From contig CADEFN010000002.1 of the NCBI GenBank assembly GCA_902826615.1, forward strand, positions 615,344-679,343: a stretch of 64,000 nucleotides of DNA, in the 5' to 3' direction. The notes under the pieces are model-generated. The model did no database searches and was not told the origin of the DNA. It saw only the letters and a program-made list of their open reading frames with translations. The first letter of the stretch is position 1. Every line of letters starts with the position of its first letter. Made by a program: the position numbers and the translations under genes. The DNA comes from an uncultured Gemmatimonadota bacterium. GTDB taxonomy: Bacteria > Gemmatimonadota > Gemmatimonadetes > Gemmatimonadales > Gemmatimonadaceae. Of the stretch, positions 3,202-23,200 are shown piece after piece.

Positions 3202-5859
3202 CTACTGCGCGATCCGCGCCGCTCCCGCCGAAAGCAGGTTCACAAACAGGCGCGCCGCCCCGGGAACGCCGTTAGGCAGCTGCCGGAAGAACGCCAGCGA
3301 TGTGTACACGTAGGTCCCGCGGCCATATTCCGCGACGAGCAGTCCCCCACGATTGGCGGGCTCACCCGGGTCGTTCATTTCGAGAAGGGGCCGGTAGGCC
3401 GGGTCGAAGGTGCGCGGCATGTACAGCGCGCGGTCCTGCACCCAGCCGTCGAAATCCTTTGTAGTGATGGCGTTAGGCGCGGCCAGCACACTGGCGGACG
3501 CATCGAGCACCTTGACCGGTGCCCCTTCGACCGTGACCCGGTCGGCCGGCCGCCCGAGGGTGATCGGGAAAGGCATCATGCCCGGGGCGAGCATCTCGTA
3601 TTGTCCGTATTGCACCACCAGAGTGCCCCCGTTCCGGGTGTACTCCAGGAGGCGCGGGTTGGCGGCCACCAGTGCCGGTGAGGCCTCGTAGGCCCGCGTC
3701 CCTACCACCACTGCGGTGTACTTCGACAGGTCCGCACGACCCAGCTCGGCGGGGTCGATGACGGTGACCGCAAGCCCGAGCTGCTGCAGCACGGGGGCCA
3801 CGTTGTCGCCTACACCATTGATGTAGGCCACCTGCATGGCACGAGGCAGCTGCACATCAACGGCTTCGATGCCGAGTTGCGCTTCGCGATAGAGTCGCTG
3901 GGTGCGAATGTGATCGTAGGCAACCCCTTGATAGCCGGCGGTGAAGGTCTGGCCCGCACTGGTCGCGGACGCCGATACCATGTGTCGTCCAGGCGTCAGC
4001 CTGCCGCGAACACTGAAGGTGACCGTGCGCACGACCTCGGCACCCGGTCCGCCGGTCATGCCAAAGAGCGCGGCCGCCTCGCTGGGATTGGCTTCGCGCG
4101 CGTTGCCGGGGAGTGAAATCGTCCGGGTGACGCTGTCGGCAATCAGCCCCGCCGGAAGGGCGAGTCTGACTTCGACCTGACGTGCCGCACGCGCGTGCGA
4201 ACGCACCTGCACCCGAATGGTGCGCTGCAGCGGCGCGTTTGCCTGCGCGTATTCGATATCCCGATCCATCGTGATGGCAATGGCGGGCGCGCCCACCACC
4301 GGCCGGTTGATCTCACCCTTGATGGGATCGGCAAAACGAAAGGTCACCGGCGTGAAGACACCGAAGCTCGCACCCTCGACCTCAAAGAACGACAGCAGTG
4401 TCGGCGACGCACGCCGTTGCCCGTCATCAAGTGTGGTGCCAGGCACGGAGAACATCGGCCCCGTGCGCGGGGTCGCCAGCCACCAGGGACCACCGGCATT
4501 GTCCGCAGACACCTCCAGGCTGTCACGAAGTGCGGAGTCCGGAGCCAGAGCCACACTCGTCCGCAGCAACTCGGCAGCGGCGCGTCCTCCACCGACCATC
4601 ATCCGGCGCACCAGACGCACCGGCGATGCACCGCGGTTGTAGGTGCCCACGGCGATACGTGTGGGTTCGCCGCTGGCCAGCACCTCACGTGGCGCCGTGG
4701 CTTCAACCGCCACGCCGGCCGCGAGTGCCAGCGCAGCCTCGACGCGGCTGCTGGCAACCTCGACGGACCGGAAGAGATCGCCGTTATGCACAACAAGCGA
4801 GTTGCCATCGGCCGACAGTGATGCACAGGGATTGCCGGGTCCCGCACCACCACACACCCGGCCCAGGAGACGCTGCACCGCGCCTAACGCACTCAGCACA
4901 GCGGCAGGACGACGCAGGTCGAGACGGGTGCGAGCGGCGGCAAAGGCGGCGGGGAGGGAGTCGAGCGCGGCCCGTTGGGCTCGGGTACGCACCACCGACG
5001 CAAAACGCGACCAGGTGGTGTCCACACCATCGAGCAGCGAGCGCTCCCGCCGCGCATCGGAGGGCCCCACCCGTGCCGCCTCACGCAGGAGCTGATCATA
5101 TCGCGCCCCCTTGAGCTGCAACGCACCCATCGCCTGCGACTTGTGCTGCGATCGTGAGTCCGACGCCACCTCGGAGTAGGAACGCCCCGACACCACATCG
5201 AACTCGCCGACATTGATGCGCAGTGTGGCCTGCGCCTGATTCCGGAAAAGCGCACCCCGATAGAACTTCTGTACCGTCCAGCCACCATTTCCGCCCGTCA
5301 CGCGGCGCGGGAATCGCACCGTGTCGGCGCTGATGTCATACGCCTCTCGCGCCAGCATGCCCGCCACCTGGTGATGCCCGTGACCATCGGCGGGAGTACC
5401 CGAGAAGACACTCACGATCACGTGGGGCCTGAAGGCCCGTACCACGGTGATCACGTCGCGCAGAATCGAGTCACGCGACCACTGTGTGAGTGCCTCTTCG
5501 GCGTTCTTTGAAAACCCGAAGTCGAATGCCCGGGTGAAGTACTGCTTGCCACCATCGAGCCGTCGCGCCGCCAGCAACTCCTCGGTCCGGATCGCGCCTA
5601 ACGGTTCGCCGAGTTCGTTGCCCACAAGGTTCTGGCCGCCGTCGCCGCGAGTGAGCGAGAGATAGGCGGTCTCCACCTGCCGGCCTCGCGCCAGCCAGGC
5701 AATAAGCTGGGTGTCCTCATCGTCGGGATGGGCCGCAATCACGAGCACACGCGCCGACACGCCGAGCCCTTCGACGAGCGGGGCCAGTGCGGACGCCTGT
5801 CCGAGAAGCACGGGAGGCACGAGAAGCACGAGAAGCACGAGAGACGCGAAACGTTTCAT
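3202..5859 (-). CDS. exported PIG-L family (LmbE-like) deacetylase, multidomain
   Basis: This is an 885-residue exported protein. Residues 1-20 are a signal peptide made largely of a repeated Leu-Leu-Val unit (mature end QASALAP). The catalytic domain follows, with the zinc motif AHPDDE at 43-48 and HGHH at 160-163. PIG-L enzymes remove acetyl groups from N-acetylglucosamine-type substrates, and a periplasmic target such as a glycan is likely but unproven. The middle part looks like beta-sandwich domains. The last 220 residues (VAYINGVGDNVAPVLQQLG to the end) resemble a ThuA/glutamine-amidotransferase-like fold. The gene lies between sucA and ndh on the same strand. Its start codon sits in the loop of a very long inverted repeat (5803-5928), so translation may be gated by RNA structure. 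Confidence 0.85.
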   Translation of the reverse strand: MKRFASLVLLVLLVPPVLLGQASALAPLVEGLGVSARVLVIAAHPDDEDTQLIAWLARGRQVETAYLSLTRGDGGQNLVGNELGEPLGAIRTEELLAARRLDGGKQYFTRAFDFGFSKNAEEALTQWSRDSILRDVITVVRAFRPHVIVSVFSGTPADGHGHHQVAGMLAREAYDISADTVRFPRRVTGGNGGWTVQKFYRGALFRNQAQATLRINVGEFDVVSGRSYSEVASDSRSQHKSQAMGALQLKGARYDQLLREAARVGPSDARRERSLLDGVDTTWSRFASVVRTRAQRAALDSLPAAFAAARTRLDLRRPAAVLSALGAVQRLLGRVCGGAGPGNPCASLSADGNSLVVHNGDLFRSVEVASSRVEAALALAAGVAVEATAPREVLASGEPTRIAVGTYNRGASPVRLVRRMMVGGGRAAAELLRTSVALAPDSALRDSLEVSADNAGGPWWLATPRTGPMFSVPGTTLDDGQRRASPTLLSFFEVEGASFGVFTPVTFRFADPIKGEINRPVVGAPAIAITMDRDIEYAQANAPLQRTIRVQVRSHARAARQVEVRLALPAGLIADSVTRTISLPGNAREANPSEAAALFGMTGGPGAEVVRTVTFSVRGRLTPGRHMVSASATSAGQTFTAGYQGVAYDHIRTQRLYREAQLGIEAVDVQLPRAMQVAYINGVGDNVAPVLQQLGLAVTVIDPAELGRADLSKYTAVVVGTRAYEASPALVAANPRLLEYTRNGGTLVVQYGQYEMLAPGMMPFPITLGRPADRVTVEGAPVKVLDASASVLAAPNAITTKDFDGWVQDRALYMPRTFDPAYRPLLEMNDPGEPANRGGLLVAEYGRGTYVYTSLAFFRQLPNGVPGAARLFVNLLSAGAARIAQ

Positions 5860-5928
5860 TGGGTAGTGCGAGGATCAGAATCGTGCGCCAGCGTGCTTCC
5901 CGTGCTTCCCGTGCTTCCCGTGCTTCTC
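5803..5928 (-). promoter_or_regulatory. 37-bp inverted repeat enclosing the PIG-L start codon
   Basis: Arm 5803-5839 and arm 5892-5928 are built of four 9-bp units each (GTGCTTCCC or GTGCTTCTC) and are near-perfect reverse complements. In the minus-strand RNA they give 34 Watson-Crick pairs, two G-U pairs and one A-C mismatch around a loop of 52 nt. The loop holds the ribosome-binding region and the ATG of the PIG-L gene. One arm starts within the sucA stop codon; the other encodes the Leu-Leu-Val repeats of the signal peptide. It could terminate or process the sucA message, hide the PIG-L start, or both. Confidence 0.7.
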
Positions 5929-8695
5929 ACCTCATGACCGGCCGCCCGCGTGGCACCAGAGGCGCCGCATGGACGTCGCCCACAATCCGCGCCTGCTCGG
6001 CGAGGTGTGCGCTGTTGTACCCCTCGGCGGGACTCGCCCGCTCCGGACGACCGATGTAACGGATGATCAGAGCGTTGCCGGCGGACACGCGAAGACGTGG
6101 GGCCACAAAACTCCAGGCACCCATGTTCTTCGGTTCCTCCTGCGTCCACACAATCTCGGCAACATTCGGGTAGCGGTCGACGATGCGCGACACCTCCTCA
6201 AGCGGCCAGGGATAGAGCTGCTCGATGCGCACCACCGCGAGATGACTCGGGTGATCCTTGCTGACGAGATCGTAGTAGATCTTTCCGGTGCAGAAGACGA
6301 GGCGCGTCACCTCATCACGATTCTGCACCATGGGATCGTCGATCACCGGCTGGAAGCGTCCACCCGTGAGGTCGTCGAGCCGGCTGGTCGCGGCCGGAAG
6401 GCGCAACATGCTTTTGGGCTGCATGAGCACCAGGGGCCGCTTGACGGGCAGCCGCGACTGGCGTCGCAGGATGTGGAAGTACTGCGCCGGCGTGCTGGGA
6501 TAGGCCACCCGCAGGTTGCCTTCGGCGCAGAGCTGGAGGAAACGCTCGAGCCGAGCCGACGAATGTTCGGGTCCCTGCCCTTCGTAGCCATGTGGCAGCA
6601 GCATCACCACGCCCGAATCCTGACGCCACTTGGCTCGGTCGGCGGCAATGAACTGGTCGATGATGGGGGCGGCCATGTTCACGAAGTCGCCAAACTGCGC
6701 TTCCCACAACACCAGTGCCTCGAGATCAGCGGTGCTGTAGCCGTACTCGAAGGCCAGCACGGCCAGTTCGGTGAGCGGCGAGTTGTAGATCTCGAAGCGA
6801 CCGGACGCCTGCGGAATGTGCTGCAGGGGGGTGTACTTCACCCCGGTGTTCACATCGTTGAGCACCGCGTGACGATGCGTAAAGGTGCCACGTTCGGCAT
6901 CCTGGCCGGTGAAGCGGATGTTCACGCCCTCACTCAGCAGCGAGGCAAAGGCCAGGGCTTCGGCATGCCCCCAATCGATACCACCGGCCTCGCCTAACGC
7001 TTCGCGCCGGCGTTCGAGCTGTTTGGCCAGACGCGGGTGCACGGCGTGGGTTTCGGGCCACGTCAGGAGACGCTCGTTGAGCCCGATGATGGTTTCGGCG
7101 CGCAACCCCGTTTCCACCGGCGGGAGCGAGGTGGGCGTGAGCCGTGGTGCGTCGGTCTCATCATGTCCCTCGTGATGGTCCGCTTCGGACTGCCTCGAAA
7201 GCGCCAGCACATCGTCCATCTGCCGCTGGAATTCGGCGTCCATCGCCGCGACCGCGTCAGCGGTCACCACACCACGTTTCACCAGCTGCTCACCCCAGAT
7301 CTGCCGCGGTGTAGGGTGTTGGCGGATGATGCTGTACAGCGCCGGCTGGGTGTACGACGGCTCGTCGGCTTCGTTATGCCCCCAGCGGCGGTAGCCGACG
7401 AGATCGATCAGGACATCCTTGCCGAACTTGGCGCGATAGGCGATGGCCAGTCGGATGACCGCAATGCACGACGACGGATCGTCGCCATTGACGTGCATGA
7501 TGGGCACTTCGAAGCCCTTGGCCAGATCGCTCGCGTAGTACGTCGAGCGCGCGTCGGACGGGTTGGTGGTGAACCCCACCTGGTTGTTGGCGATGATGTG
7601 CAGCGAGCCACCCACGCGATACCCGGGGAGGCGAGACATGTTGAACGCCTCGGCCACCACGCCCTCGCCCGGAAAAGCCGCGTCACCATGAATCACGATC
7701 GGGAGCACACTCGCGTCCCCGCCACCGGAGATGTCGCGACGAGCACGCGCCACACCCGTGAGCACGGGATTGACCACTTCGAGGTGCGACGGATTGGGCA
7801 CCAGCGACACCCGCACGGTGCGCCCATCGGCGTACGTGCGCTCGGTGTCAGCACCCAGGTGGTACTTCACGTCACCGGTTTCGCTGTCGACATGGTCGGC
7901 GTGTTTGCCGTCAAACTCGTTGAAGAGTTTGCCATACGGCTTGTCCAGCAGATGCACCAGCACGTTGAGGCGACCACGATGGGCCATGCCAATCACGACG
8001 TCCTGCACGCCTAACGCGGCGCTTTCGTCGATCGCCGCATCGAGCATCGGTACCATCACATCGATGCCTTCGATGGAAAATCGCTTGACGTTGACATAGG
8101 CACGCGCGATGAAACGCTCGAGCCCATCCACCTGGGTGAGCCGCTTGAGCACGCCCACCTGCTCGTCGGCCGTGAGCTCGTGGGAGTAGTCACCACGTTC
8201 GATGGCCTGGCGCAGCCAGTTGCGCTCGGCGTCGTCCTCGATGTGGGCGAACTCGTACCCGACGCGTCCCGCAAAGGTGGCGCGAAGACGCGCCGCGACA
8301 TCGGCGGCGGTGGCCTCGGGATACCCCACCGCTGCTCCCGGCACCAGGGCCAGGTCGGCTTCGGTAATGCCGTGGAACTCCGGCGTGAGTTCCGTTGCGC
8401 CAGACGGGGCCGAGCCTAACGGGTCGATGGGAACGGCCAGATGCCCGTAGTGGCGAATGGCATCGATCAGCGCCGCCGCTCCAGCCACCTTGCGCAGGAA
8501 GTTGGCGTCGGTCGGGGCCGCCGGCGCCGCTATGGCTGCGGCTGGCGAGCTGGTCGGGGCCCCCGACAGGGACAGGGCGAAGGTGAAGTACTGGCGCCAG
8601 GACTCGTCGACGGAGGCGGGATCGCGGCGGAAGGCCTCATACAGTTCGGCGACATGACCGTCATTGTAGACGCCGATGATCGGAGTACTCGTCAT
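5927..8695 (-). CDS. sucA: 2-oxoglutarate dehydrogenase E1 component
   Basis: This 922-residue thiamine-diphosphate enzyme catalyses decarboxylation of 2-oxoglutarate in the citric acid cycle and hands the succinyl group to the E2 lipoyl domain. The N-terminal recognition segment (YEAFRRDPASVDESWRQYF) is followed by the E1 core, including GMAHRGRLNVL, the VPNPSHLEVVNPV segment, GDAAFPGEG and GYRRWGHNEADEPSYTQP. The C-terminal half has HGYEGQGPEHSSARLERFLQ. I place the start at the ATG at 8695, which begins MTSTPIIG; a GTG 24 bp upstream is possible. E2 (sucB) and E3 (lpd) genes are not adjacent, which is unusual for this pathway. PIG-L and ndh genes follow downstream on the same strand. Confidence 0.95.
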   Translation of the reverse strand: MTSTPIIGVYNDGHVAELYEAFRRDPASVDESWRQYFTFALSLSGAPTSSPAAAIAAPAAPTDANFLRKVAGAAALIDAIRHYGHLAVPIDPLGSAPSGATELTPEFHGITEADLALVPGAAVGYPEATAADVAARLRATFAGRVGYEFAHIEDDAERNWLRQAIERGDYSHELTADEQVGVLKRLTQVDGLERFIARAYVNVKRFSIEGIDVMVPMLDAAIDESAALGVQDVVIGMAHRGRLNVLVHLLDKPYGKLFNEFDGKHADHVDSETGDVKYHLGADTERTYADGRTVRVSLVPNPSHLEVVNPVLTGVARARRDISGGGDASVLPIVIHGDAAFPGEGVVAEAFNMSRLPGYRVGGSLHIIANNQVGFTTNPSDARSTYYASDLAKGFEVPIMHVNGDDPSSCIAVIRLAIAYRAKFGKDVLIDLVGYRRWGHNEADEPSYTQPALYSIIRQHPTPRQIWGEQLVKRGVVTADAVAAMDAEFQRQMDDVLALSRQSEADHHEGHDETDAPRLTPTSLPPVETGLRAETIIGLNERLLTWPETHAVHPRLAKQLERRREALGEAGGIDWGHAEALAFASLLSEGVNIRFTGQDAERGTFTHRHAVLNDVNTGVKYTPLQHIPQASGRFEIYNSPLTELAVLAFEYGYSTADLEALVLWEAQFGDFVNMAAPIIDQFIAADRAKWRQDSGVVMLLPHGYEGQGPEHSSARLERFLQLCAEGNLRVAYPSTPAQYFHILRRQSRLPVKRPLVLMQPKSMLRLPAATSRLDDLTGGRFQPVIDDPMVQNRDEVTRLVFCTGKIYYDLVSKDHPSHLAVVRIEQLYPWPLEEVSRIVDRYPNVAEIVWTQEEPKNMGAWSFVAPRLRVSAGNALIIRYIGRPERASPAEGYNSAHLAEQARIVGDVHAAPLVPRGRPVMR

Positions 8696-8840
8696 GCGCG
8701 CAAATCTAATCCCGCACACGTGTTACGTCACGTCGCCCACACGTTCGTCACGCAGGACCGGTCTTCCTGTCTGCGACCTGCAGCTCAGGATCCCGCCGTG
8801 TACATAACCGCGACCCCAAACGGCGCGACAGTTGTCGACG

Positions 8841-8957: not shown

Positions 8958-9449
8958 ATGCGGTACCCCATCAGATCCCTCTTGCTGGCCGCGCCCCTGC
9001 TGGCGGCCTGTGGCCAGGCACCTCTCGCGTCCGGAGCAACGCTCAACAGCGGCCCGGCAAGCCTGGAGCGCCGCGTCAACGTGGCATTCGGCGGATACTC
9101 CTGGTGGATCGAAGTCGACAGCACATCGGCGTCGCTCAGCGTGAAGTGCGAGCAGTTGACAGGATCGCGCGTCGGGAATCCCTGTGCCAACTACCCGGCC
9201 CGCACCGTCAGCCTCGCGCCGACCGACGTGCGGTCCCTGTTTTCGCTCACCCGGCAGCAAGACTTTGTGAACGCCAAAGCCGAGTACGACATGTCAGCCA
9301 CCTTTGTGGATGGGCCCTCGTATTCGATTGCGCTGGTCGCAAATGGCGTCTCAAAACAGGTGCGCTGGTCCGACGCCGAGCGTGCCCTCCCGTCGTCGCT
9401 TCGTTCGGTGAGCGACCGCATGCTTTCACTGGCGGGGCTTACCCCGTAG
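8958..9449 (+). CDS. lipoprotein of unknown function, paralogue 1
   Basis: This 163-residue protein has a type II signal peptide (MRYPIRSLLLAAPLLAAC, lipobox LAAC) and no recognised domain. The mature part contains two cysteines 12 residues apart (VKCEQ and NPCANY), which could form a disulfide, then TDVRSLFSLTRQQDF. The same order of features occurs in the lipoprotein at 10719-11192, so the two are paralogues. GGAG lies about 10 bases before the ATG. The 3' end overlaps the convergent methyltransferase gene by 24 bp. Anchoring in the membrane is well supported by the lipobox; a role is not known. Confidence 0.7.
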   Translation: MRYPIRSLLLAAPLLAACGQAPLASGATLNSGPASLERRVNVAFGGYSWWIEVDSTSASLSVKCEQLTGSRVGNPCANYPARTVSLAPTDVRSLFSLTRQQDFVNAKAEYDMSATFVDGPSYSIALVANGVSKQVRWSDAERALPSSLRSVSDRMLSLAGLTP

Positions 9450-10625
9450 CACCTGCTGCCCCGCTGCCACCGAAAAGGCGACGCGGATTCCTCCAGCGCT
9501 GGTGGTAAACACCTGGCGCCAGTCGACGCGGGCGCTGTTTCGCAGCCCCTGAGAGCTGGTCAGTAGCGCGGCGGACCACCCCTGGAACGACCCTCGGGCC
9601 AGGTGCCCGAACGAGGCGTAGAGGTCGCGCAGGGCCTTGGCGTCGCCCACCCGTTCACCCCACGGCGGGTTGGCAATCAGGAGTCCCGGCGCGCTGACGT
9701 TGTCCGACGGTGCCGCCTGCGACAATGCCTGACGAGTGAAGACGATGTCGCCCGCCACACCGGCCCTCTCGGCGTTGGCGATTGCAGCTTCGATAGCGCC
9801 GGCATCGCGATCGGAGCCCGCGATCGGCACCGGAACCTGCGCCCGCTCGTTTGCCCGTGCCTCGCTGACCACCCGCTTCCACACGGCGGGCTCGAACATC
9901 GGCCACTGCGCAAAGACAAACGCGCGAGAGATGCCCGGTGCGATCCCACGCGCCACGAGGGCCGCCTCGATGGGGAGTGTGCCCGAGCCGCACATGGGAT
10001 CAGTCAGCGGTGTGTCACCGCGCCACTGGGCCCCGCGCAACATGGCGGCGGCGAGTGTTTCACGCAGCGGCGCCCGCGCCACCGCCTGCCGGTAACCACG
10101 GCGGTGCAGCAGTTCGCCCGACGAGTCGAGGGACAGCGTGCACTGATCGTGATCGATGCGGACGAGGATGAGCTGCCCGGCACTCGGCTCCTCGTCGTCA
10201 GTCACCCGGGCACCGGTGACTCCTTTCACGGCCTGGGACACCACGCCGAGTACACGCTCCGCCACCGCACCGGAGTGATAGAGCCGCGACTTCTTGCATG
10301 TCACACGCAGCGCCACCTGGGCACCGGGAGCAATCCAGCGTGGCCACTCAACACCCTGTGTGCCTGCCTCGAGTTGTGAAAAGTGCGCGGCCTTGAACTC
10401 GGCGAGACGCACCACCACTCGACTCGCAATGCGGGAGTGCAGGTTGGCGCGATAAATCCCCTCGAGCGCGGATTCGAAGCTCACCCCCGCGTCACTGACA
10501 TCTGTCGGTGTCAGCCCAAGCTCACGCAACTCCTCCGCGAGCAGTGGGGCGAGACCCGGTGCGGCAATCGCGAACGACCGAAGTGTGACAGCGTGAGGCA
10601 CGCGGGGAGCAGGCTGTTTGCGCAC
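9426..10625 (-). CDS. rlmL: RlmL-type 23S rRNA guanine-N2 methyltransferase
   Basis: This 399-residue enzyme matches the N-terminal half of RlmKL: a THUMP RNA-binding domain (about residues 15-165) followed by an AdoMet-dependent methyltransferase domain. Motif I-like DPMCGSGTLPIEAAL and the catalytic NPPWGER are both visible. Members methylate the N2 of a guanine in 23S rRNA (G2445 in E. coli), which aids ribosome assembly. The second domain of the fused E. coli protein (RlmK) is absent, as in many bacteria. Translation begins at GTG 10623-10625, with no clear ribosome-binding site. The gene is framed by two related lipoprotein genes on the other strand. Exact target base is inferred from family only. 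Confidence 0.85.
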   Translation of the reverse strand: MRKQPAPRVPHAVTLRSFAIAAPGLAPLLAEELRELGLTPTDVSDAGVSFESALEGIYRANLHSRIASRVVVRLAEFKAAHFSQLEAGTQGVEWPRWIAPGAQVALRVTCKKSRLYHSGAVAERVLGVVSQAVKGVTGARVTDDEEPSAGQLILVRIDHDQCTLSLDSSGELLHRRGYRQAVARAPLRETLAAAMLRGAQWRGDTPLTDPMCGSGTLPIEAALVARGIAPGISRAFVFAQWPMFEPAVWKRVVSEARANERAQVPVPIAGSDRDAGAIEAAIANAERAGVAGDIVFTRQALSQAAPSDNVSAPGLLIANPPWGERVGDAKALRDLYASFGHLARGSFQGWSAALLTSSQGLRNSARVDWRQVFTTSAGGIRVAFSVAAGQQVLRGKPRQ

Positions 10626-10718: not shown

Positions 10719-11192
10719 ATGACAATACGTGCATTGATAGCCGGATCAGCACTCCCCTTTCTCGCGGCATGCGGCAACACGCTCTCCGTTGCGGTTGACC
10801 TCCCCGTTCCGCAGGCCACACCCGTCATTCAGCTCGAATCCCTCGGCGGCATTGCCTCACTGCGTGTTCAGCTGCGACTGGACAGCACGACGGCGACGTT
10901 GTCGCGGGAAACATGCGGCATGACGGTGACGGCCGCCGAGTGCGGAATCAGAGGACGTCGCGACGTGATCGGCGTGCCCGCCGCCGACGTGGCTCGGCTC
11001 TTCGCCATGACCACCACTGCGGATTTTCGCGCGCTCAAAGCCGACTACGGCCACAGCACGCAGGGTGCAGACCTGATGGATCACACACTGACGATCACCA
11101 CGGGCGGCCGCACGCGCAGTGTTCGTGGCGACGACATCACGCGTCCTGACCTCATGGCCGGCGTGATGGCGGCACTGAACGGATTCCGGTAG
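10719..11192 (+). CDS. lipoprotein of unknown function, paralogue 2
   Basis: This 157-residue protein has a lipoprotein signal peptide ending in the LAAC lipobox (MTIRALIAGSALPFLAACG). It resembles the lipoprotein at 8958-9449: SLRVQLRLDSTTATLSRETC matches WWIEVDSTSASLSVKC in the first, both have a second Cys about ten residues on, and ADVARLFAMTTTADFRALKADYGHS matches its TDVRSLFSLTRQQDFVNAKAEYDMS. No family is recognised. It is followed by a strong hairpin that should end transcription from both sides. The pair probably arose by duplication around, or insertion of, the methyltransferase gene. Confidence 0.7.
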   Translation: MTIRALIAGSALPFLAACGNTLSVAVDLPVPQATPVIQLESLGGIASLRVQLRLDSTTATLSRETCGMTVTAAECGIRGRRDVIGVPAADVARLFAMTTTADFRALKADYGHSTQGADLMDHTLTITTGGRTRSVRGDDITRPDLMAGVMAALNGFR

Positions 11193-11251: not shown

Positions 11252-12490
11252 CTACTTCTGCTTCGGAACCTTGAGCACCATCGTCTGCCCTTCCCAGCCG
11301 AACACCAGACCCGATGCCGTTTCCACGGCCTTGATGGCGTCGGTCGTCGACGTCAGGGGCGCGTTCATCGAGACCATCCGGGCGCCTAACGTGGTGTCCT
11401 GCAGGAAGAGTTCGGTGCCGTACCAGCGCTTGATCTCCACCAGGGTCTGCTTGAGCGATTTGTTGTCGACCGCAAAGGTGCCGTCGACATAACCAAAAGC
11501 TTCTTGCAGGTGTGCAGGCGTGGGCTGGGCCGTCTTGCCGTCCTTGCCGATCACGAGCGTCTGTCCGGCGGTGAGGGTCTGTGTGCTTTCCTCGGGCTCC
11601 TGCACCTCGACCTTCACCGAACCCTCTTTCACGCGGGCAATGACGACGTCCTCATCCTTGTAGTGACGGATGGCAAACACGTCGTTGCCGGTGGAGGTGA
11701 ACATCACGTTGGCCGCCAGGACCTGGAAGGGCACGGCATCCACCTTGGGGGTGAACTCCGCCACCCCTTCGATGCCGACGCCACGCGACGCTTCGTTGAA
11801 TTGGTCGGGGAGTGTGACCCGTGTTTCGGCGCCGAACATGGCCTTCGAACCGTCATCGAGGGTCACGTTCCCGCGTTGTCCGGTGCCGGTTTTGACGTCC
11901 TTCACCGCGGACTGGATCTGTCGTGCCAGACGTCCCTTTTCTCCCGACTTGGCAAAGAGATATCCGCCACCACCAACCGCTGCCAGGAGACCGAGGGTTG
12001 CCAGCGCGCGCCCCAGGATTGGCTTCTGCTTGGTCATTTCACGGATATGGCCACCGGCCTCGTGCCGCAGCTTGTCTTTCATCGCTTCGGCCTGGGCCAA
12101 CGCTTCGGCACTCGGCCCCTGAATGACGGCCGCCACTTTGCCCCACACGTCATCGACGCTGGGCGCGGGTGCTGACGTCGCCTTGCCACCGTCATCGCGC
12201 TTGCGGATACCGGCCAGCCGGCTGCGCTCACGGACCGCAGCTTCGTGCACAGCGCCGTCGAGCATGCCCGTGAGGGCCTCTGGCGTGCTGAAGCTGGCGC
12301 GCTCCGCGAAGAGCTTGGGGATCAGGCGTTCGACCACGCGGGCCGCCGCGGTGTCATCGCCAACGACTTCTTTCGCCTTGGCCATGAGGACGGGGAAGGC
12401 AGCACGAAAGAGTTTTTCGAGTGCGCCAAGGTCGCCTGACTTGAGCTTGCCTAGCAGCGTGGCGTCGAGGCCGGGAATGGAGAGAGACAT
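11252..12490 (-). CDS. FecR-like membrane protein with sigma-region-2-like N-terminus
   Basis: This is a 412-residue single-pass protein. Residues 15-100 (LGALEKLFRAAFPVLMAKAKEVVG, then AARVVERLIPKLFAER and the LTGMLDGAVHEAAVRERSR helix) follow the helical pattern of ECF sigma region 2. A membrane helix lies at about residues 160-182 (RALATLGLLAAVGGGGYLFA). A FecR domain (GNVTLDDGSKAMFGAETRV) and a DUF4974-like C-terminal domain (GTFAVDNKSLKQTLVEIKRWYG) follow. FecR proteins are anti-sigma regulators that sense TonB receptors, but no sigma gene is adjacent here, and the N-terminus is where an anti-sigma domain would normally be. I start at ATG 12490 (MSLSIPGLD); 35 further in-frame codons upstream look non-coding. 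Confidence 0.7.
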   Translation of the reverse strand: MSLSIPGLDATLLGKLKSGDLGALEKLFRAAFPVLMAKAKEVVGDDTAAARVVERLIPKLFAERASFSTPEALTGMLDGAVHEAAVRERSRLAGIRKRDDGGKATSAPAPSVDDVWGKVAAVIQGPSAEALAQAEAMKDKLRHEAGGHIREMTKQKPILGRALATLGLLAAVGGGGYLFAKSGEKGRLARQIQSAVKDVKTGTGQRGNVTLDDGSKAMFGAETRVTLPDQFNEASRGVGIEGVAEFTPKVDAVPFQVLAANVMFTSTGNDVFAIRHYKDEDVVIARVKEGSVKVEVQEPEESTQTLTAGQTLVIGKDGKTAQPTPAHLQEAFGYVDGTFAVDNKSLKQTLVEIKRWYGTELFLQDTTLGARMVSMNAPLTSTTDAIKAVETASGLVFGWEGQTMVLKVPKQK

Positions 12491-20225: not shown

Positions 20226-23200
20226 ATGTCACTCAGAACGGTCAGAACGACCCTGGCGTTTGCCGCAGCTTTTCTCGCGGCGGTGCCACTTCGGGTCTCC
20301 GCACAATCCGGTCAGCAGGGGTCCATCACGGGCCGAGTCACCGATGCCGCCAGCGGCCAGCCTATTGGGGCAGCCCAGATTGCCGTCGTCGGTACAACAC
20401 TCGGCGCCCAGACAAACACCGACGGGCAGTACACGATCCGCGGTGTGAATGCGGGCACGGTGCAGGTGCGCGTCCTTCGCCTGGGATACGGTGAACTCCG
20501 CCGGCCAGCGACGGTCACCGCCGGCCAGCCCATTACGCTCGACTTTGCGTTGACGGCCCTGGCCGTCAACCTGAATCCGGTGGTCACCACCGCCACCGGT
20601 CAGCAGCGGCGCATCGAAGTCGGCAACGCCATCGCCCAGCTGGAGGTGGGGCAGCTGATCGAGTCGAAGCCCGTTTCGGGGATGGCCGACCTGCTGACGT
20701 CGCGCGCGGCAGGCGTCCTCATCACCCCGGGGACTCAGACCGGGGCCGGCACGCGCATCCGGATTCGCGGCACCAGCTCACTGTCGCTGACCAACAATCC
20801 CATCGTGGTCATCGATGGTGTCCGCGTGGAGTCCTCCACGGGCTCATCGTCGGTCGGCGTCGGAGGGACGACGACCTCGCGCTTCGACGACCTCAACCCC
20901 GAGGAGTTCGAGTCCATCGAAGTTGTGCGAGGCCCCTCAGCGGCCACCCTCTACGGGACCGACGCTGCAAACGGCGTCATTGTGATCACCACCAAAAAGG
21001 GCACAGCAGGTCGGCCGCAGTGGTCGTTCTACTCCGAGCAGACCGGCATCACCGATCGCAATACCTACCCCACGGCCTGGCATGGCTGGCGCACAGGCAC
21101 CACCGCCACCACCAACTCCACGCCCTCCAACACGGTGCAGTGTTTCCTCTCGCAGGTGGTGGCGCGCGCCTGCACGCAGGACAGTGTGACGAGCTACAAC
21201 CTGCATGAGGACAAGGACGCGACGCCGTTTGGCGTCGGGTATCGGCGCCAATACGGGGCGCAGCTGCGCGGCGGGTCAGAGGTCGCTCGGTACTTCCTCC
21301 ACACCGAAATGGAAGACGAGGATGGCGTCACCAAGGTGCCCGAGTTCGAAAAGCGATACCTGGCGGCCAACAACCGGTCGCTCAGCGACCGTCAGCAGGA
21401 TCCGGGGCGTCGGGGCCGCATCACGGGCCGAAGCAATGTGAACATCACGCTGCCGCGCAACGCGGAAATGCAGGTGAATGCCGGCTTCACGTCGCAGGAC
21501 ATCTTTCTCCCGCGCAGTGACGACTCCGGCACTCCCGGAATCGCCGCCAACACCTTTGGTGGTCCCGGCTTCCGCTACAATCTCAACCCGCAGGGCGATA
21601 CGCTCTTCGGGTGGAGACAGTTCACCCCGCGTGACATCTACCAGACCGAAACCACGCAGTCGGTTGAGCGCTTCATCGGGTCGGCCAACACCAGCTGGCG
21701 TGCCTCCGACTGGTTGTCTGCCCGCGCGAACTTCGGGCTCGATTACACCAACCGCCTGGATTCGCAGCTCTGCCGCTTTGACAACTGCACCAACACCGGG
21801 CAGGACCGTCTGGGGTTCAAGACCGACAACCGCACGAACTTCTTTGTGTACACGGTGGATGCCGGGCTGACCGCCACCAAGCGGCTGAGTGACGCGATCG
21901 AGTCCAAGACCACCGGCGGTGTGCAGTTCTATCGCAACATCTTCAATCGCAACGGCGCCAGCGCTTCCCTGCTGCCGCCCGGCGCCGTAACGGTGACCTC
22001 CGGCTCGGTGGCCACCGCCGACGAGACAACGGCGGAAAGCCGCACGCTGGGCGCCTTTGTGGAGCAAGCCATCTCGTTCCGCGACAAACTGTTTGTAACT
22101 GGTGCGGTCCGCTCCGACCGCAACAGTGCCTTCGGTGCCAACTTCAAGACCGTCTTCTATCCCAAACTCTCGGCCTCCTGGGTTGTGAGCGAGGAAGGCT
22201 TCTTCCCCAAAGCCGGCTGGCTCAGCCAGCTGCGCGTGCGCTCTGCCTACGGCGCCTCGGGTGTGCAGCCCGGCACCATCGACGCCGTGCAGTTCTTCGG
22301 GGCGTCCGTCTTCCGCGGCGAAAGCGGCGACCAGCCAGCGCTCGTCTATTCGGCCCTCGGCAATCGTGACCTCAAGCCCGAGCGCTCGACCGAACTCGAA
22401 ATGGGAGTGGATGGCAGCTTCTTCAACTCGCGCGTGACCACGGAGCTGACCTACTATCGCAAGTCGTCACGCGACGCCCTCATCTCACGCATTCTCCCGC
22501 CCTCGGTCGGCACCGGCGCCACCGCGCGCCTGGAGAATCTGGGCGAGGTGCAAAACACCGGTTGGGAAGCGCTGATCAACGCGCAGATCGTGAGCCGCGA
22601 CGCCATCGGCTGGGACCTCTCGATCAATGCGTCGACAAACGACAACCAGCTTGTCAGCCTCGGCGGGGTGCCGCCGATTGTGGGCGCCACGCAGCACCAG
22701 AAGGAGGGTTATCCCCTCTACGGCTGGTGGTCGCGCCGTCTCACCGGATACAGCGACAAGGATGGCGACGGAATCATTCGCTACAGCACCGACGCGAACC
22801 TGAGCGAGATCACCGTCAGCGATACCGCCGAGTTTCACGGGTATCCCCTGCCGCGATATGAGTTCGCCGTGACCAACAGCATCGAGTTGTTCAAACGTGC
22901 CCTGCGCCTGTCGGCAATGATCGACTACAAGGGCGGGAACCTCGTCTACAACAACTCCGATCGCATCCGCTGCGCCTCACGGTTCAACTGCGAAGGGCTC
23001 ATCAACCCCAAGGCCCCGCTCTTCGAGCAGGCACGCACCGTGATGGTGCGTGAGCATCCCAGTCGTTCGGTCGCCGGGTTCTTCGAGGATGGTGACTTCC
23101 TCCGGCTGCGCGAACTCTCCGCCTCATGGACGATGTCGCGCAGCCTCACCACGCGTCTCCTGCACGGTCGCGCCTTCTCGGTGACGGCCGCGGTCCGAAA

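Follow-up and report, generated by a model that had tools for sequence, protein, structure and literature searches.

The question raised by this locus is what a sigma-like domain is doing at the front of a FecR-type membrane protein. Fused or mimic sigma factors are rare. According to one review (PMC8999054), IutY is the only ECF sigma factor whose activation through proteolytic cleavage of a membrane part fused to it has been characterized experimentally; among sigma mimics, the textbook example is PhyR (PMC8103513). The gene studied here lies in a 64,000-nucleotide stretch of DNA from an uncultured member of the Gemmatimonadaceae; we refer to this whole stretch as the window. The features of the gene and its product, which we call the fusion, are collected in Table 1.

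Table 1. Features of the fusion gene and its product, in window coordinates
Feature	Position	Strand	Basis
Whole gene, pseudo-sigma2/TM/FecR fusion	11252..12490	minus	ATG start, 412 aa
Sigma region 2-like domain, residues 6-98	12197..12475	minus	Profile against PDB, AF2, structure match
Site of the region 2.2 core-binding motif, charge-reversed (residues 50-55, here A-R-V-V-E-R)	12326..12343	minus	Residue comparison
VDxxW helix, residues 110-126	12113..12163	minus	Sequence comparison; AF2 helix 112-124
Helical stalk, residues 128-153, with His148	12032..12109	minus	Alignment, AF2
Single transmembrane segment, about residues 162-180	11951..12007	minus	Hydrophobic run in sequence; AF2 helix 159-193
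FecR juxtamembrane beta domain, residues 198-293	11612..11899	minus	Pfam PF04773; PupR 6ovk match
FecR_C/STN-like subdomain, residues 339-403	11282..11476	minus	Pfam PF16344, E 0.015 (below cut-off); PupR CCSSD fold

Sigma region 2 homology and protein layout

When residues 1 to 110 were searched alone, Pfam gave no match and the NCBIfam sigma models gave weak ones (best E 0.007), and a PDB search with the N terminus as a single sequence returned no match, so that its identity was left undecided. A profile of residues 1 to 99 built from 23 orthologs made the sigma identity clear. Every significant match of this profile in the PDB was a sigma factor, the best being RpoE (9n9q, E 3.4e-7), followed by SigH (6in7), SigW (5wuq), AlgU (8z6g), and CnrH (4cxf). 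The NCBIfam model Sig70_bacteroi1 was matched by 20 of the 23 members (the best E value across all sigma models was 7.7e-8), and, compared pairwise, residues 8 to 124 were 38% identical to a relative's ECF sigma factor, whose gene adjoins one for FecR (E 5.5e-10). Structure comparison with Foldseek and VIA-align likewise ranked sigmaE region 2 (4lup) and other sigma factors at the top, 4lup fitting the fusion model with a TMt of 0.77 to 0.78, a Z score of 10.7, and an rmsd of 2.4 across 91 residues. The closest solved relative of the domain, 9n9q chain C, comes from an RNA-guided transcription complex, in which it is the RpoE subunit.

The initial annotation had likened the first ~100 residues to ECF sigma region 2, and profile and structure agree on this; neither of the contrary outcomes named beforehand, an unrelated bundle or a lack of region 2 similarity in profile searches, occurred. 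The N terminus is a genuine ECF-type sigma region 2 homolog that replaces the FecR anti-sigma domain. An unrelated helical bundle was rejected because profile and fold both match sigma region 2, and a plain or zinc-free anti-sigma domain was rejected for the N terminus because of its sigma region 2 homology. As had also been noted, region 4 is absent (0 of 23 members match a region 4 family at E <= 1), and the fusion therefore lacks a part that functional ECF sigma factors have.

The same annotation placed a membrane helix and FecR domains downstream, and this layout was borne out. There is one transmembrane segment, followed by a FecR domain that passes the Pfam cut-off (E 1.3e-6) and by a weak FecR_C match that fails its own. 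The AlphaFold2 model has a mean pLDDT of 84 for the whole protein and 82.6 for the cytoplasmic part. It places helices at residues 10 to 17, 21 to 43, 46 to 62, and 70 to 98 in the sigma2-like domain, shows the VDxxW helix with high confidence, and has residues 126 to 160 as a stalk that continues into the transmembrane helix. In fold, the match of the periplasmic part is to PupR (6ovk) and 4m0h. The protein thus has the FecR plus STN periplasmic domain of FecR-type regulators, whereas their N-terminal anti-sigma domain is missing, residues 1 to 99 being sigma2-like. By homology to FecR, the N terminus is expected to be cytoplasmic and the C terminus periplasmic. In the premembrane stalk, His148 (window 12047-12049, minus strand) is nearly invariant, occurring in 62 of 63 orthologs, and His143 is common too (45/63); these residues are possibly a ligand or contact site.

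Residues at polymerase- and promoter-contacting positions

In sigma factors, the beta' clamp helices are the binding site of regions 2.1/2.2 (PMC7406223), and these contacts are electrostatic and made through conserved residues (PMC6411747). We compared 21 ordinary ECF sigma factors from the same and related bacteria with 23 and then 63 fusions. Ordinary sigma factors carry the region 2.2 motif E-[DE]-x-x-Q-[DE], turned toward the beta' clamp helices; it is gone from nearly all fusions, with its first acidic residue charge-reversed. An acidic residue at position 50 was present in 0/23 fusions versus 19/21 sigma factors, at position 51 in 0/23 (and 0/63) versus 21/21, and at position 55 in 0/23 versus 20/21, while Gln54 was found in 1/23 (and 3/63) versus 21/21; Fisher values for the comparison of 23 fusions with 21 sigma factors take no account of shared ancestry and serve only as description. 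Position 51 is instead Arg or Lys in 20 of the 23 and 58 of the 63 fusions, and the net charge of helix 46-62 shifts from about -3 in ordinary sigma factors to about 0. The acidic-x-x-Gln-acidic signature by which functional ECF sigma factors bind core is therefore lacking in the fusions.

Positions 82, 83, and 87 have changed as well. Arg82 is retained in 5/23 fusions versus 21/21 sigma factors, Asn or Asp at position 87 in 1/23 versus 20/21, and Asn83 in 0/23 (2/63) versus 20/21. The RN motif equates position 83 with N88 of sigmaH, the Asn wedge that opens the -10 base pair (PMC6411747). Residues of the core fold are kept: an aromatic residue at 61 (Trp in 58/63), Arg64 (61/63), Ala23, and aliphatic residues at 53, 57, and 77, including Leu77. 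Within the genus, dN/dS for the sigma2-like domain is about 0.09 to 0.2, and the constraint is no weaker than that on the FecR part. The domain is under purifying selection.

Judged from these substitutions, the domain is a pseudo-sigma: a sigma2 fold that has lost the promoter-melting residue and would lack the RNA polymerase clamp contacts. That it is a pseudo-sigma is what is new here, and it varies the theme of the sigma/anti-sigma hybrids and sigma mimics already known. The initial suggestion that the protein holds RNA polymerase at the membrane runs against the lost or charge-reversed region 2.2 motif and the loss of the -10 wedge Asn in nearly all orthologs, and such a role for the sigma2-like domain is disfavored. 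Degenerate core and promoter contacts on a sigma-like fold are instead the pattern of PhyR-type mimics.

Distribution, origin, and genomic context

A search of 60 related genomes found full-length orthologs spanning both halves in more than 20, all of the same family. The 23 that we extracted are 26 to 78% identical to the window protein and have a common layout. The initial annotation had called for a survey of the phylum, and a profile search of 298 Gemmatimonadota genomes found the N-terminal part at more than 80 bits in 61, all of one family and usually in single copy. These 61 are among at least 103 sampled Gemmatimonadaceae genomes (genome numbers tallied by hand from the match table), and the fusion was absent from the ~195 sampled Gemmatimonadota genomes outside the family. 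The next scores, of 72 bits or less, belonged mostly to ordinary ECF sigma factors of about 200 aa. A contig search gave six matching loci, all in Gemmatimonadaceae/Gemmatimonadota MAGs. Because intact proteins of 406 to 442 aa with this layout recur in about 60 genomes, the layout is far beyond chance, and an assembly or frameshift artifact was rejected on the same grounds. One ortholog, at G106:C14:149017-149412, has a TAG within the matched region and may be a pseudogene or reflect a sequencing error.

The assembly of the fusion could be read against ordinary sigma/FecR pairs from the same and related genomes. Sigma homology extends through region 2.4 and just into the linker (...RRAALHRFEAHEG for the fusions and ...RRRKLERRWEEEHG for one sigma factor), and the VDxxW helix follows. 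In ordinary FecR proteins, V-D-x-x-W stands just before the membrane helix, after the ...LARYLAGEAT... anti-sigma helices. From this comparison, the fusion is without sigma4 and without the front of the anti-sigma domain, while the last premembrane helix of that domain was probably kept. The proposal that a sigma domain stands in place of the anti-sigma domain thus holds for the front and probably not for this helix. The resemblance to FecR and PupR of cell surface signaling accordingly spans the membrane helix, the FecR juxtamembrane domain, and the C-terminal STN subdomain, with the last anti-sigma helix probably common to both, whereas in the fusion sigma2 replaces the anti-sigma front and neither a sigma gene nor a TonB-dependent receptor gene adjoins.

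In FecI/FecR, the FecR N terminus binds sigma4 (PMC9249621), and the parts lost from the fusion, sigma4 and the anti-sigma front, are the partners that bind each other there. Class I anti-sigma domains touch sigma2 regions 2.1/2.2 with their last helix (PMC7406223), and the VDxxW helix would correspond to this helix, with the reservation that FecR-type anti-sigma factors align poorly with the others (PMC7406223). Whether the tree is built from the FecR part or from the sigma2 part, the 23 fusions fall on one side of a single branch (SH-aLRT 100 and 99), consistent with one origin. Most likely, the fusion arose once, when an ECF sigma factor and its FecR regulator were joined and sigma4 and the anti-sigma front were lost, in an order of events that we infer.

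No ordinary sigma gene sits beside the fusion, as first described: there is no PF04542 gene within 100 kb on the contig, the nearest matches being at C2:483887 and C2:737014 and the fusion gene at C2:626598. Outside the genus, we found no conserved partner gene adjoining it; the neighbors vary between genera, and in the distant genomes sampled they are unrelated housekeeping genes (among them those for pseudouridine synthase, DEAD helicase, RmuC, Rho, and peptidases). An operon with a TonB-dependent receptor was rejected for this reason. The fusion is thus without the cognate sigma and receptor genes that accompany FecR-type regulators. Several ordinary FecR genes in the same genomes do adjoin receptors, for example, C1:713227 (plug at C1:712313) and C5:328411 (with C5:327365), and likewise G002 C8:13477 (with C8:15036) and G019 C5:612345 (with C5:613829). 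The fusion itself has no receptor closer than about 8 kb in the window genome or 126 kb in G019. In the window genome, the plug domain of this nearest receptor lies at window 20652-20978 (plus strand; G000:C2:635995-636321), on the strand opposite the fusion.

In five genomes (G005, G006, G023, G027, and G029), the fusion was the only FecR-like protein detected, by searches that find ordinary FecR elsewhere, and the fusion is missing from the two genomes with the most FecR genes, G011 (29 FecR_C matches) and G243 (23). On both counts, the role of the fusion is seemingly independent of ordinary sigma/FecR pairs.

Possible roles of the fusion

The nearest known architecture is that of IutY of Pseudomonas putida, an ECF243 sigma/anti-sigma hybrid (PMC5411451, PMC9249621, PMC8999054). 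In both proteins, a single chain combines a cytoplasmic sigma domain with one membrane helix and a periplasmic domain of the FecR type, and both lack the FecR anti-sigma domain proper. IutY, however, has sigma4 (residues 100 to 164) as well as sigma2 (residues 8 to 84), is an active sigma factor after Prc/RseP cleavage, and adjoins the receptor gene iutA, whereas the fusion lacks the sigma4 of the IutY-type plan (sigma2, sigma4, transmembrane helix, FecR), has apparently lost its core and promoter contacts, and has no receptor neighbor. In the open-access literature, we found no published sigma2-only FecR fusion; only IutY surfaced. By analogy, PhyR offers the nearest functional model. Its sigma-like domain, which titrates NepR, has the correct ECF fold with core and promoter regions that are degenerate (PMC8103513). 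Like the fusion, PhyR links a sensor part to a sigma fold whose contacts to RNA polymerase and promoter are degenerate, but PhyR is soluble, has a receiver domain, and binds NepR, whereas the fusion is sigma2 only and membrane tethered.

We put at about even the chance that the fusion is a stand-alone FecR-type membrane sensor with a pseudo-sigma cytoplasmic end, acting by protein contact as a tethered sigma mimic. In such a sensor, the periplasmic FecR/STN domain would sense a signal, and a conformational change or Prc/RseP-type proteolysis would expose or free the sigma2-like domain; release by Prc/RseP homologs, which the genome encodes, is a candidate step. The exposed or freed domain would then bind, titrate, or recruit a partner in the cytoplasm; a class I anti-sigma factor or a sigma domain is the most plausible candidate, by comparison with the sigma-like domain of PhyR. 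More specifically, the signal might expose or release a polymerase-dead sigma2 that titrates a class I anti-sigma factor and so switches on other sigma factors. The fusion would then correspond to PhyR as a one-component sensor of the envelope that arose independently in the Gemmatimonadaceae; we offer this version tentatively and think it rather unlikely.

The membrane-tethered decoy proposed at the outset fares accordingly: a PhyR-like decoy role is possible and compatible with PhyR-like degeneracy (PMC8103513), while its partner cannot universally be a FecR-type anti-sigma factor, given the five genomes in which the fusion is the only FecR-like protein. Those genomes, and the FecR-rich G011 and G243 without the fusion, also count against the sigma mimic reading. 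The surface that class I anti-sigma factors use on sigma2 overlaps the changed 2.1/2.2 face, which weakens the decoy role, and the protein's own VDxxW helix may cover that face, weakening it further.

Such covering might be permanent. The protein would then be a collapsed sigma/anti-sigma unit, a plug or dimerization domain, whose partner binds elsewhere, for instance, at the stalk with its nearly invariant His148. We consider this doubtful. It draws on the position of the VDxxW helix just before the membrane in fusions and ordinary FecR alike, on its confident modeling, and on the contact of the last class I helix with regions 2.1/2.2. There is also some covariation of residues 25 to 29 and 88 to 92 with 112 to 119 (suggestive pairs are 91-116, 54-87, and 29-113), but this comes from an effective 43 sequences and is confounded by shared ancestry. 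The poor alignment of FecR-type anti-sigma factors with others speaks against it too, and a mere plug would not need so strong a constraint on the sigma2 domain.

A membrane-stored sigma factor of the IutY kind, its sigma2 freed by proteolysis to work with RNA polymerase, either unaided or together with a sigma4 on another protein, strikes us as improbable. The IutY plan and the RseP and Prc homologs fit it, and so does the precedent of Bacillus subtilis SigO/RsoA, a split sigma with sigma2 and sigma4 on separate proteins, of which RsoA is the sigma2-only subunit (PMC8103513). RsoA resembles the fusion in having sigma2 without sigma4, but its gene accompanies that of its sigma4 partner, SigO, and it is transcriptionally active, whereas the fusion is membrane tethered, has no sigma4 gene alongside or conserved neighbor able to supply one, and has a charge-reversed core contact motif and, in almost all orthologs, no -10 wedge Asn. 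A search for sigma4-only partners gave 62 region 4-like matches in the genome, many resembling other helix-turn-helix regulators.

Very improbable is a decoy for TonB-dependent receptor signals, in which a complete FecR/STN periplasmic fold with no linked receptor of its own would compete with ordinary FecR for receptor signaling domains and the cytoplasmic domain would be a relic: that domain is not a relic, because it is constrained within the genus at least as strongly as the periplasmic one and kept family-wide, receptors with an STN domain are represented in the genome by a single weak candidate, and in five genomes no ordinary FecR was detected as a competitor.

The fusion suggests that sigma/FecR pairs can merge into a single polypeptide in which the sigma2 fold survives without the RNA polymerase contacts, and that such a protein has been maintained across a bacterial family. 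It places a pseudo-sigma under a membrane sensor in a form open to direct testing, and annotations that combine sigma-like and FecR domains need a residue check.

Two further observations concern the same part of the window. Two small predicted lipoproteins, paralog-like by eye, are encoded at 8958-9449 and 10719-11192 (plus strand), either side of a methyltransferase-like gene (9426-10625). At about 5787-5930, short repeats (of Arg-Glu-Ala type when translated) lie around the 3' end of a dehydrogenase-like gene (5927-8719).
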